Shown here piece after piece: positions 8,694 through 32,546 of a stretch of 64,000 nucleotides of DNA (positions within the stretch are counted from its first letter, which is position 1; every line of letters starts with the position of its first letter). Location of the stretch: the NCBI GenBank assembly GCA_030065915.1, contig JASJCQ010000004.1, positions 248,001-312,000 of the forward strand, in the 5' to 3' direction. The DNA is from Woeseiaceae bacterium. Lineage in GTDB: Bacteria > Pseudomonadota > Gammaproteobacteria > Steroidobacterales > Woeseiaceae. A model generated the notes under the pieces. The model searched no databases and had not been told where the DNA came from. It was given only the letters and a program-made list of their open reading frames with translations. A program made the position numbers and the translations under genes.

Positions 8694-10496
8694 GTGGCTA
8701 AAGTAAACGACGTCGTTATCAAGATCGGGACCGTTAACGGAACCGGCTCAGCCAGCGCCAACGGACTCTTGAGAAAAGCGATATTTCGCATGGGCGTCCC
8801 GGTCGTCGGCAAGAACTATTTCCCGTCCAACATCCAGGGACTGCCGACCTGGTACGAGATCCGGGTAACCGGAGACGGCTACCAGTCCCGGGCCAATCGG
8901 GTCGACATCATGGTTGCGATGAACGCGCAGACCTATGCGCGCGACATGGCGGAGGTATCGACCGACGGCATCCTGATTTACGACTCCACCTGGCCGCGCA
9001 GCAGCCTCCTGGACCGCAAGGACATCAACGTGCTCGGCGTCCCGCTGTCCCGGCTTTGCAACGAGCATTTCGACGGCGCCCGGACGCGGATCCTGATGAA
9101 GAACATCGCCTATGTCGGCGTCATCGCGGCACTGCTGGACATCGACCTCGACGTCATCAAGGGCCTGCTGGAAGAGACCTTCGCGGCCAAGCAGCACCTG
9201 ATCGGCTCCAATATGGATGCCATCAAGCTCGGCTACGACTATGCGACAGACCATTTCTCGTGCCCGCTGCCCTACAAGGTCGAGGCGATGGACGCGACGA
9301 ACAACCACATCGTCATCGACGGCAACACGGCGGCCGGACTGGGGTGTCTCTATGCCGGCGCGACAGTCGGCGCCTGGTACCCGATCACGCCGTCGACGTC
9401 GTTGATGGATGCATTTCGCACTTTCTGTCAGGAGTACCGAAAGGACCCGGAGACCGGTAAGCGAACCTACTGCATTATCCAGGCCGAGGATGAACTGGCG
9501 GCCATCGGTATGGTGCTGGGCGCGAGCTGGAACGGTGCGCGTGCATTCACGCCCACGAGCGGCCCCGGCATTTCACTGATGAGCGAATTCATCGGGTTCG
9601 CCTATTACGCCGAGATCCCCGCGGTCATTTTCAACGTGCAGCGCACTGGCCCATCGACCGGCATGCCCACCCGAACCCAGCAGTCCGACATGATGAGCTG
9701 TGCCTATGCCTCGCACGGCGATACCCGGCACGTGCTGCTGTTCCCGTCGGATCCCGGAGAGTGTTTTACGATGGCGCCAACGGCATTCGATCTCGCCGAG
9801 GGTCTGCAGACGCCGGTCATGGTGCTCTCGGACCTGGACATCGGCATGAACGACTGGATGGTGCCGGCCTTCGAGTGGGACGAGGACCGCACGTTCGACC
9901 GGGGCAAGGTCTACACGGCTGAGGACCTCGAGGAAATGGAGGCCTTTCATCGCTACCTCGACGTCGACGGTGATGGCGTCCCGTATCGAACGCTGCCAGG
10001 CCAACATCCCAAGGGTTCCTACTTCACCCGTGGCTCCGGTCACACGAAGCTCGGCGCCTACACCGAGGATGCCGACGAGTACCAGGAGGTCGTGGATCGG
10101 CTGCTGGTCAAGTGGGAGACGGCCAGGGAGAAGGTGCCCGAGCCGGAAATCGTCTACTCCAAGTTCAATACCGCCGCCATCCTGACGGTCGGCAGCGGCG
10201 ACGCCGCCTGCAAGGAGGCGATGGACCGGCTGTCCGAGCAGAACATCGGGCTCAACTACCTTCGAGTCCGGGCATTCCCCTTCAGCGACAGCGTACGGGA
10301 GTTTATCGATCAGCACGAGGTCATCTATGTCGTGGAGCAGAACCGCGATGCGCAGCTCAGATCGATGTTGATGCTCGACCTCGATGCGGACCCGAAGAAG
10401 CTGAAGCCGCTGCTGCACTACAACGGCATTCCGATCAATGCTGGCTTCGTCGTCGACGGCGTACTCGAAGAGATTGCAAAGGGCCGTGCGGCCTGA
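8694..10496 (+). CDS. 2-oxoacid:acceptor oxidoreductase, fused gamma-alpha subunit
   Basis: This subunit of a 2-oxoacid:ferredoxin oxidoreductase (CoA-dependent oxidative decarboxylation of 2-oxoacids, or the reverse) joins a gamma domain (IGTVNGTGSASANGLL, residues 1-190) to an alpha domain (GAWYPITPSTSLMDAF, TSGPGISLMSEF, RTGPSTGMPTRTQQSD). The track ORF from 8436 overlaps the previous gene by 250 bp; GTG 8694 with GAGGA four bases upstream gives 600 aa and a 10-bp gap. ATG 8637 is an alternative. Gamma-alpha fusion is typical of KorA/IorA-like enzymes from aerobes and microaerobes. The 2-oxoacid (2-oxoglutarate, pyruvate or branched chain) cannot be fixed; the fused form most often annotates as 2-oxoglutarate. 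It works with the next gene, which binds TPP. Confidence 0.9.
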   Translation: MAKVNDVVIKIGTVNGTGSASANGLLRKAIFRMGVPVVGKNYFPSNIQGLPTWYEIRVTGDGYQSRANRVDIMVAMNAQTYARDMAEVSTDGILIYDSTWPRSSLLDRKDINVLGVPLSRLCNEHFDGARTRILMKNIAYVGVIAALLDIDLDVIKGLLEETFAAKQHLIGSNMDAIKLGYDYATDHFSCPLPYKVEAMDATNNHIVIDGNTAAGLGCLYAGATVGAWYPITPSTSLMDAFRTFCQEYRKDPETGKRTYCIIQAEDELAAIGMVLGASWNGARAFTPTSGPGISLMSEFIGFAYYAEIPAVIFNVQRTGPSTGMPTRTQQSDMMSCAYASHGDTRHVLLFPSDPGECFTMAPTAFDLAEGLQTPVMVLSDLDIGMNDWMVPAFEWDEDRTFDRGKVYTAEDLEEMEAFHRYLDVDGDGVPYRTLPGQHPKGSYFTRGSGHTKLGAYTEDADEYQEVVDRLLVKWETAREKVPEPEIVYSKFNTAAILTVGSGDAACKEAMDRLSEQNIGLNYLRVRAFPFSDSVREFIDQHEVIYVVEQNRDAQLRSMLMLDLDADPKKLKPLLHYNGIPINAGFVVDGVLEEIAKGRAA

Positions 10497-10513
10497 ACGG
10501 ACGGGGGAGTCTG

Positions 10514-11569
10514 ATGAGCTACATTCCGAAGCCGAAAGTTACCCACCCTCGCGCCGCGAGGAACGCGCTTGGCCTGACATCGAGAGACTATGAAGGCGCT
10601 GTGTCTACGCTCTGCGCCGGTTGCGGCCACGATTCGGTCACGGCGGCGATCGTACAGTCCGTATTCGAGCTGGACGTGGAGCCCCACAAGCTGGCCAAGA
10701 TGAGCGGCATCGGTTGCTCGTCCAAAACGCCGGCCTATTTCGTTAGCCAGTCGCACGGCTTCAATTCGGTCCACGGGCGCATGCCGTCCGTAACGACAGG
10801 CGCTTATGCGGCCAATGCGGACCTGATGTACATCGGTGTCTCAGGGGACGGCGATTCGCTGTCGATTGGCGTCGGGCAGTTCGTCCACGCAATTCGACGC
10901 AACCTGAACATGTGCTACATCATCGAGAACAACGGGGTCTACGGCCTGACGAAGGGGCAGTTCTCAGCGTCCGCGGATATCGGCAGCAAGCCCAAGAAGG
11001 GCCTGCCGAACCAGCAGGAGCCGATCGACCCGGTCAGCACCGCAATCAGCCTGGGCGCCAGCTATGTCGCTCGAAGCTTCTCCGGCGACAAGGAACAGCT
11101 GGTCCCGTTGATCAAAGGTGCGCTGTTGCACCCGGGCTTCGCGCTCGTCGATGTCATCAGTCCCTGCGTCACATTCAACGATCACGAAGGCTCGACCAAG
11201 AGCTACGAGCACACGCGCCAGTTCTATCACCACGTAACCGACATCGACTACATTCCCCCGGCGAAGGAGATTGTCGCGGAGTATGACAAGGGCGCGGTCA
11301 TGCCCGTCGAGTTGCATGACGGTTCACGGATTCTGCTTCGAAAGGTCGATGACCGCTACGACCCGACCAGCCGCGCCGCCGCCTTCAAGTACCTGCGCGA
11401 ACACTTCAATGCGGGTGAGATCACGACCGGCCTGCTGTACTTCGACGAGCAAAGAAAAGAAATGCACGAGTTGATGGGCAACGTCGAAGTCCCGTTCGCG
11501 GAGTTGCCGCTGGACAGCCTTCGGCCACCCAGCGGCGAGCTGCAGAACATCCTCAGCAAATACCGGTAG
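10514..11569 (+). CDS. 2-oxoacid:ferredoxin oxidoreductase beta subunit (TPP-binding)
   Basis: The beta subunit carries thiamine diphosphate and an iron-sulfur cluster. The 351-aa protein starts at ATG 10514 behind GGGGGAG; the longer track ORF is a read-through of another frame. Visible are CAGCGHDS (cluster and TPP region, about residue 36), the TPP/Mg motif GDGDSLSIG followed by NNGVYGLTKGQ, and GIGCSSKTP. It lies 17 bp after the alpha gene and is the last gene of the operon. Together with the flavoprotein this gives a complete complex needing no separate ferredoxin. In aerobic gammaproteobacteria such enzymes can replace or supplement the 2-oxoglutarate dehydrogenase complex; that role here is inference. 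The gene ends four bases before an inverted-repeat element. Confidence 0.92.
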   Translation: MSYIPKPKVTHPRAARNALGLTSRDYEGAVSTLCAGCGHDSVTAAIVQSVFELDVEPHKLAKMSGIGCSSKTPAYFVSQSHGFNSVHGRMPSVTTGAYAANADLMYIGVSGDGDSLSIGVGQFVHAIRRNLNMCYIIENNGVYGLTKGQFSASADIGSKPKKGLPNQQEPIDPVSTAISLGASYVARSFSGDKEQLVPLIKGALLHPGFALVDVISPCVTFNDHEGSTKSYEHTRQFYHHVTDIDYIPPAKEIVAEYDKGAVMPVELHDGSRILLRKVDDRYDPTSRAAAFKYLREHFNAGEITTGLLYFDEQRKEMHELMGNVEVPFAELPLDSLRPPSGELQNILSKYR

Positions 11570-11572
11570 CCG

Positions 11573-11741
11573 CTAGCCCGAATTTCTCACCGATTCGTGG
11601 GTAAGATCGGTAAGCCCATTGTCTGCACAAGGGATTCTCCGATTGAGCGGAATACCAGGTTGTGTTTCCGAGTGAGGAAAAGGTCCTGTACGGACAATGG
11701 GCTAGCGAGAGCCCGCGCAATCGGTGAGATATTCGGGCTAG
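11573..11741. mobile_element. 169-bp element with 23-bp terminal inverted repeats (MITE candidate)
   Basis: The left arm (11573-11595, beginning CTAGCCCGAATTTCTCACCG) and right arm (11719-11741, ending GATATTCGGGCTAG) are 23-bp inverted repeats with one mismatch. Inside is a second dyad: AGCCCATTGTC with GACAATGGGCT. No ORF of use is present. It fills the gap between two convergent genes and supplies the stop codon of the minus-strand DUF2330 gene. The outermost CTAG on both sides could be a target duplication or part of the ends. It may be a miniature inverted-repeat transposable element or a large bidirectional terminator; the long near-perfect ends favour the former. Confidence 0.6.
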
Positions 11742-13066
11742 TTCCAGATCGTCTTCCACCACGGCTCGTCGACCTGCTGCGGCAGCCCCGGGATCTGTGC
11801 GCGGATGTCGTTGATATCCCAGCCCGTCAGGCTCGCCAGCATCTTCGCCTCGCGTTCCTGGCGCTCGATGAGAGAAGCGCGATACTCCTCGGCCATGCCG
11901 CAGGTATCGGCACCTTCGAATGCGTGACGAACAATGTAGCGACCCTGGAAGTTCTCCCGATCGCCCGTCTCCTGCAGCATCAAATCCTCGGGGAAGTGCT
12001 CCGCGTCGTAGCGAACATGGAGCCGTGTGACAAAGACGTTCTGCGCCTGCGGTGCCATGCCTCGACGAGGAGAGTTCCCGGTCGGCTTGTCCAGCCAGAA
12101 TACACCCAGTGATCGCAGTTCATCCGCGGTCAGCGGGTCCGCCGCACAGGGGTCGCACCAGGCCATGTCCCACGCATACTCGAGGAACACGCCGCGCTCG
12201 TTCGCCAGCTCGGTCTGCTTCGCAAACATCGTGCGGTAGAAGTCGCCGAACTGTCCTTTAACATGCACCGGGAGCTCGACGTTGCTCGGCAATCGTACCG
12301 TGCGGTAGTTCGTCGTCTCAACGCGACCGGTGCGCGTCAGCGTGTAGACATACATGTCCTGCTTGCCTTTTGCGTTCAGCGTACCGAGGCGTATCGGCAG
12401 CATGAATTTCTCCGACTCGAAAGCGACCTGTAACGGACGGAGGTTGGAGAAACCGGACTTCTGCTGTTCTTCGAGGTTCACCTTGGCGACAAAGAAGCGC
12501 ATGCCCTGCTTCAGGTAGCTGCCGATCACGCGTTCGGCGCCAGCCGGGATTCGATACTGGTTCTCATTCAACCACCGGATCAGGCCATCACTCTCTTTGG
12601 CCGACAGGATCAGGATGTCGTACTCACCGACCGTGTAGCTCGCTTCCACCGTGACGCCCAGTGACTTCTGGCGCCTGACGGCGGCCTCGTCAAAGTCCAT
12701 TCGCGCACTCGGCGCTGCCATCTCGTAGACCACACGATGACAGGGGTCGGAGTCGAAGTACTCGACCAACCGGGGTGCCGTGTAGGCGTCGAGGTGGTCG
12801 ACGACTGCCTGGTTGCCGACGTTGATCTGCTCACGCTCGATGAAGGTGGGCACGGGTACGACCATGGCGAACTCGCTGACGTCGCCCTTGAAGTCATTGA
12901 CCATCGTAATGACGGTGCGTTTACCGTCCCTGACCAGCACGACCTGCGACGCTTCGTTGAATAGTTCGCTGTCCGCTTTCGCGACGTAGAAACCGCAGAA
13001 TGCCTGTGCCGTAGCGCCGACAAAGAACGTGAGCAATGTCACGGAGACTAAAACAAGGCTACGCAT
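11738..13066 (-). CDS. DUF2330 domain exported protein
   Basis: A 442-aa protein with an N-terminal signal peptide (MRSLVLVSVTLLTFFVGATAQA, cleavage near AQA-FCG) and DUF2330 hallmarks such as ELFNEASQVVLVRDGKRTVITM and FAMVVPVPTFI. No function is established for this family. The second cysteine after cleavage and the CDPC/DTCGM cysteines may form disulfides. The coding end lies inside the terminal repeat of the neighbouring palindromic element, so the last codons could have been changed by its insertion. Its start overlaps the end of the upstream RnfD-like gene by 8 bp, implying translational coupling and joint function at the membrane. Confidence 0.88.
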   Translation of the reverse strand: MRSLVLVSVTLLTFFVGATAQAFCGFYVAKADSELFNEASQVVLVRDGKRTVITMVNDFKGDVSEFAMVVPVPTFIEREQINVGNQAVVDHLDAYTAPRLVEYFDSDPCHRVVYEMAAPSARMDFDEAAVRRQKSLGVTVEASYTVGEYDILILSAKESDGLIRWLNENQYRIPAGAERVIGSYLKQGMRFFVAKVNLEEQQKSGFSNLRPLQVAFESEKFMLPIRLGTLNAKGKQDMYVYTLTRTGRVETTNYRTVRLPSNVELPVHVKGQFGDFYRTMFAKQTELANERGVFLEYAWDMAWCDPCAADPLTADELRSLGVFWLDKPTGNSPRRGMAPQAQNVFVTRLHVRYDAEHFPEDLMLQETGDRENFQGRYIVRHAFEGADTCGMAEEYRASLIERQEREAKMLASLTGWDINDIRAQIPGLPQQVDEPWWKTIWN

Positions 13067-32206: not shown

Positions 32207-32546
32207 CCCTGTCTCCTGCGCATAAATCACAACAAAGACAGGCGCCGGTAGCGCTAAGTATCGGCGGCCCCGCTATCCAGGTTGTAACTTCACCCTGGAC
32301 CGGAGGCTTTGCGACACTGCCTTACGACAGCTGTGCCTTTGTCGAACCCGGTCGATGCTGCATGCATCGGTCAAGGCTCGCAAGCCGACGAAAGCGCAGA
32401 TGACATAATCCCGGACTGTCGCTGCTAAGCGACTGATTCCAAGGGAAGTGCCGGATGCCGTGCAACGTCGCTCTGCTGAAGCAATCGCACATAATCTTGT
32501 ATCCTGCGTAAGCCGTACCGAAGCACAAGGCGGGAGAAACCAGACA
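32207..32546. other. 340-bp divergent intergenic region
   Basis: Lies between the minus-strand FAD oxidase and the plus-strand dehydratase. It contains the small hairpin GTCGCT-GCTA-AGCGAC (32418-32433) and the dyad CGATGC-TGCAT-GCATCG near 32350. AT-rich CATAATCTTGTATCC (about 32491-32505) could hold the -10 of the plus-strand gene. No convincing ORF, RNA gene or named regulatory site was seen. Confidence 0.5.

Follow-up and report, generated by a model that had tools for sequence, protein, structure and literature searches.

What is the 169-bp palindrome that fills the gap between two convergent genes of this Woeseiaceae genome, and why does one of these genes end inside it? The window, the whole stretch of 64,000 nucleotides that was analysed, corresponds to C33:248001-312000 of the host genome (G000; 3.96 Mb in 39 contigs). 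The initial annotation had read the palindrome as an undescribed MITE moved by an unlinked transposase. It occupies positions 11573-11741, and its 23-nt arms (11573-11595 and 11719-11741) are complementary at 22 of 23 positions, matching the single mismatch reported earlier. The ends read CCCGAATWTCTCACCGATT, with CTAG on the outer side, a pattern that occurs in the window at these two places only (0.08 expected). Between the arms, the internal dyad that had also been described consists of two plus-strand segments of 28 nt (11613-11640 and 11676-11703) that are 75% complementary and include the exact pair AGCCCATTGTC/GACAATGGGCT; within it lies an apical stem-loop, CGGAATACC...GTGTTTCCG (11648-11670, plus strand), which is helix 3 of the covariation analysis below. 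The folding energy of the 169 bp has a z of -9.7 against shuffles. As had been stated, the element has no coding capacity: it contains no meaningful reading frame, no transposase gene, and no PF13701 match. Its G+C content is about half. AT-richness is usual, although not obligatory, for MITEs, and is not seen here.

Upstream, an open frame on the plus strand (10112-11569) encodes a ferredoxin oxidoreductase beta subunit (PF02775/PF12367), the true start of which is probably further inside the frame; it uses its own TAG (11567-11569), three bases short of the element. On the minus strand, the gene for a DUF2330 protein of 442 amino acids (11738-13066; PF10092, E of 6e-88) takes its TAG stop from the right-hand CTAG (11738-11741), so that the element does provide this stop codon.

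Of 73 congeners, 51 have the DUF2330 gene, and several of these show the locus without the element. In G087, G013, and G068 (L244, L259, and L262), the convergent DUF2330 and oxidoreductase stops overlap in one CTAG; in G086 and G009, they overlap in TTAG and CTAA, respectively, again without extra sequence. The host has TGGAA-CTAG-element-CTAG-CGG at the same point. The single CTAG, TTAG, or CTAA is thus the empty site that the initial annotation had suggested looking for, and CTAG is a target duplication. Other elements have non-palindromic duplications of their own: CTAA in L298, L299, and L342, and TTAG in L348. The outer CTAG reported at both ends is therefore real, but it belongs to the target duplication (left copy, 11573-11576) and not to the transposable unit, which spans 11577-11737 (161 bp, or 169 bp with the duplications) and has 19-bp ends, namely, CCCGAATTTCTCACCGATT on the left (11577-11595, plus strand) and its complementary counterpart on the right (11719-11737, minus strand). 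G075, the closest relative, has two CTAGs with 19 bp between them (CTAGCCCGGGTTCGACCCGGCGTCTAG), which may be what a deletion left of the element.

The expected multiple copies were also found. We counted about 25 in the host, of which 12 to 13 are near full length (139-170 bp, 70-87% identity in a blastn-type search), while the remainder are internally deleted forms of 34-90 bp that retain the ends. The terminal repeat pattern, allowing up to three mismatches, gave 34 matches genome-wide against none for the reversed control. The family is most uniform in another congener, G021, where a separate subfamily ends in CTAGCCCGCATCCGTCACCGATT and numbers about 10 copies that are some 95% alike. Long copies occupy sites common to G000 and G075 (L004/L317 and L011/L309). 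At other common sites, one species has a full-length and the other a deleted allele: L002 is full length in the host and its G075 counterpart measures 58 bp, while L017 measures 78 bp in the host and its counterpart 169 bp. Short forms thus arise by deletion in place, and at least the insertions at these common sites are older than the split. Since no IS1380 gene was detected in the host, its copies are only 70-87% alike, and several sites are common to the sister species, the family is likely mostly fossil in the host species. G021 also has many solitary ends, in which TAGCCCGCATCCGTCACCGATT runs into host sequence (L108, L110, L111, L114, L116-L119, L121-L125, and others), often directly behind the end of a gene; they suggest remnants or one-ended events.

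Which transposase would recognise such ends? The IS1380 transposase domain (PF13701) was found neither in the host nor in G021, both draft assemblies in which absence is weak evidence; the host result agrees with the unlinked transposase proposed at the outset. Matches came from 4 of the 73 congeners, three of them exceeding the cut-off, and from only 6 of the 14 element-carrying genomes tested. In one of the congeners, G053, a PF13701 transposase frame is preceded, at a distance of about 100 bp, by the end CTAGCCCGAAAATCTCACCGA (in a fuller read, CTAGCCCGAAAATCTCACCGATGG), and a second IS copy in that genome has the same end, which equals that of the element except at one or two positions. 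Using the G053 transposase protein as a query against named genomes, we found 80 loci in Gammaproteobacteria, Planctomycetota, Acidobacteriota, Nannocystis, and others. Nearly all carry yTAGCCCGSATWTCTCACC on the transposase side, and an inverted copy of this end lies 1.7-1.8 kb away in most loci where the contig allows. When both ends of a transposase-matched IS locus were located, the flanking 4-mers were identical in 43 of 55 cases, nearly always CTAG, TTAG, or CTAA, and 13 of these 43 pairs were non-palindromic. These flanks indicate that IS1380 makes a 4-bp YTAR duplication and has ends beginning with CCCG, in line with the outer CTAG of our element being a duplication. An unbiased blastn comparison of the element with the IS loci likewise placed the matches at the IS ends (95% over 22 nt). 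The full-length IS with matching ends that the MITE reading called for thus belongs to the IS1380 family, although neither the host nor G021 yielded an intact IS1380 whose ends match exactly.

Two further genomes allow the comparison within a single genome. In G060, the ends of IS1380 are CTAGCCCGGATTATTCACGAA and CTAGCCTGCATTATTCATGAA, the genome's own elements end in CCCGGATTATTCATGAA, and both have GCCCGGATTATTCAyGAA in common; in G533, IS and elements agree in CCCGrATrTTTCAC. In these two within-genome comparisons, to which G053 adds one between congeners, element ends resemble those of the resident IS1380. Such matching shows that the elements are compatible with an IS1380 transposase; movement in trans is predicted.

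Other origins have to be weighed against this one. Some short forms are 34-bp palindromes that look like REP sequences (e.g., CTAGCCCGAGTATCTCACCGATTGCGAGGGCTAG at L025), and the host has one Y1_Tnp gene, as might be expected if a RAYT (Y1 HUH) transposase recognised the hairpin and moved the element as a REP/BIME-like palindrome. Yet G021 lacks any PF01797 match despite its roughly 10 near-identical full copies, the Y1 locus of the host has no such ends nearby, and both the fixed 4-bp YTAR duplication and the IS1380 ends speak against RAYT. With RAYT absent from one genome and unlinked in the other, we rejected this origin as highly improbable. A strong hairpin between convergent genes could also be a resident bidirectional terminator that never moved. 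A single copy, present at this locus in all relatives and differing by compensatory changes only, is the picture that the initial annotation had tied to a terminator; as a whole, it is absent, and the compensatory changes that do exist between copies and species occur beside mobility. The stem of an intrinsic terminator is followed by a U-run, whereas no T-run follows the right arm here, and the roughly 25 dispersed copies, the empty sites with one CTAG, and the full-length and deleted alleles at common sites all argue against a resident structure. We therefore consider a resident terminator scarcely credible, although the element could terminate transcription after insertion as a secondary role. 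The sole Y1_Tnp gene of the host (L147, G000:C33:81874-85212) is flanked by GGGACATTCTGCTTTTT-type repeats, which are unrelated to the element.

Hence, the 169-bp palindrome is very probably a non-coding MITE moved by an IS1380-type transposase from elsewhere, and its description as a mobile element with IS1380 ends is well supported. It is short and without a transposase gene, it has terminal inverted repeats like those of an autonomous element, and it occurs in dispersed copies with a target duplication and an empty site. The MITE interpretation first given to it is strengthened by the copy number, the IS with matching ends, the empty sites, and the lack of a detectable transposase in the host. 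In the mechanism that we propose, the IS1380 DDE transposase of another element would act in trans on both 19-bp ends and link these to a CTAG site opened by a staggered cut. In the host, the insertion would have entered the CTAG formed by the overlapping stops of the two convergent genes, and duplication of this CTAG would have allowed the DUF2330 gene to keep its stop.

CTAG is rare in the window, with 29 sites where base composition predicts 228; of the 26 sites outside the element, 9 serve as stops for frames of 100 codons or more. In the host, 20 of 25 copies sit at such stops, a higher proportion than among these other window sites (Fisher p of 0.0017). Active targeting of stop codons was nevertheless rejected, since 23 of 42 ordinary CTAG sites in G021 are also at stops and only 15 of 53 elements in wider relatives are. 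The choice of CTAG together with the loss of gene-breaking insertions suffices to explain the placement. The element supplies the DUF2330 stop because it inserted at a tetranucleotide that occurs rarely here and clusters at stops, and the insertion was harmless because the duplication restores TAG; the exact placement of such elements on stop codons is thereby simply explained.

The usual description of bacterial MITEs is of short-lived by-products of insertion sequences that stay within a species or genus. We built a covariance model from 17 copies and examined how far this family extends. Within the genus, 11 of 73 genomes had members, which were also found in at least 37 of 369 sampled genomes and at least 29 of 271 genera of the class (E down to 1e-30 outside the genus), and in at least 22 of 399 genomes of a phylum sample, 21 of these in other classes; the class and phylum counts are lower bounds, as few candidates were scored per genome. 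Length is nearly constant, at 167-171 bp in 52 of the 53 loci read. We then aligned 33 diverse members with MAFFT, without fitting the alignment to structure. Pairing was observed in 83% of cells against 68% after shuffling, and changes on both sides of a pair in 302 cells, compared with 111 +/- 9 after shuffling and at most 66 with slid partners. Double changes affect 47 of the 59 pairs. The rows of L137 and L295 are wholly or partly reversed in this alignment, and this works against the result rather than inflating it. In G021 alone, double changes already occur among copies about 95% alike, and distant members fold strongly (z of -7.8 and -14.5). The model search and the covariation together show a phylum-wide homologous family with a conserved fold. 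Such a distribution and structured core go beyond what the initial annotation had seen, and one length with a covarying core across classes is not expected of a plain MITE.

Near-constant length and the same fold in many bacteria of the phylum suggest that the fold itself acts. If a strand is selected as RNA, G.U pairs should be tolerated and A.C should not. Read on the minus strand of the window, the inner helix contains 158 A.C and 42 G.T cells in 71 sequences, that is, a G.U excess on the plus strand. A weighted column sign-flip test gave a one-sided p of 0.002, and of 0.02 for 19 representatives, while the helix of the terminal repeats showed no deviation (p of 0.10 and 0.12) and a plain column sign test of G.U was not significant (13 versus 7 columns). 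The bias hints that the plus strand is selected as folded RNA or single-stranded DNA, although a strand-biased mutation process could also produce it. We tentatively propose a phylum-wide element of about 168 bp, the core of which is selected as a folded single strand (RNA or single-stranded DNA), while its ends adapt, lineage by lineage, to whichever IS1380 transposase is resident. The core, formed by the inner helix and the apical hairpin, is old and common to the phylum; the likeliest reason would be that the folded strand, as RNA of the window's plus strand, is what matters.

Alternatively, and again at somewhat less than even odds, the palindrome may be kept by DNA mechanics, through arm templating during cruciform or template-switch repair or through conversion between copies, with a fold that has no function; this explanation concerns the core only and accepts the MITE origin. 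In L004 (G000:C38:64613-64781) and L317 (G075:C19:12872-13044), the seven variable bases of both arms differ in a matched way, ACGCTCG/CGAACGT versus GCCACCT/AGGTGGT. Flanks and a mutated duplication identify the two as one old insertion, so the arms changed later, which suggests a concerted change in place. In L014 and L295, moreover, the central part runs in the opposite direction to the outer part, as might result from internal inversion of the palindrome. Arm copying should, in contrast, erase the pyrimidine-pyrimidine mismatches at columns 44/130, which are kept in 29 of 31 sequences, as well as the asymmetric unpaired motifs CTCGCTTG and GCGCGATCAT, which are conserved, and the G.U bias of the inner helix is strand specific.

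Among known systems, IS1380 insertion sequences are like the element in terminal sequence and YTAR duplication, but they measure 1.7-1.8 kb and encode a transposase. The core has no counterpart in their loci, where blastn gave no convincing match to the element's interior and the covariance model did not find the core. RUP of Streptococcus pneumoniae, a MITE attributed to IS630-Spn1 (PMC2229807), is also short and non-coding, with terminal repeats equal to those of an IS and insertion at the IS target; it differs in being pneumococcal and in its TA target, whereas our element has IS1380 ends, YTAR duplications, a phylum-wide range, and a covarying core. YPAL/RU-2 of Yersinia is a palindrome of about 168 bp (PMC2229807) and, compared by description rather than sequence, is nearly identical in length, intergenic, and associated with empty sites; unlike our element, it has internal inverted repeats and duplications that vary from 3 to 26 bp. 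Correia/NEMIS and the Coxiella QMITEs are folded bacterial MITEs that may be transcribed (PMC2229807, PMC5896051), and three Coxiella small RNAs come from QMITEs (PMC5896051), but these are reported in single genera and have other ends. REP/BIME sequences are repeated extragenic palindromes too, with a different class of transposase (RAYT) and no fixed target duplication of this kind. Rfam gave no match above the gathering score, blastn and exact-pattern searches of plasmid, phage, and viral-contig carriers gave none, literature searches by sequence words and by IS1380 plus MITE returned nothing relevant, and IS1380 goes unmentioned in a 2024 review of MITEs; within the reach of Rfam and searchable papers, the element is still undescribed. 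It is a MITE that is new in its breadth, fixed length, and covarying core, and the covariance model lets annotators mark an element absent from Rfam. A single core spanning many genera and several classes, flanked by ends like different IS1380 variants, offers a testable case of a non-autonomous element outliving its partners, and the same breadth together with covariation offers one for selection on the fold. If our tentative proposal is true, a structured nucleic acid would persist on its own, carried along by a single transposase family.

Elsewhere in the window, the minus strand carries a c-di-GMP-I-GGC riboswitch aptamer at 32259-32346, with 59.5 bits against an Rfam gathering score of 59.
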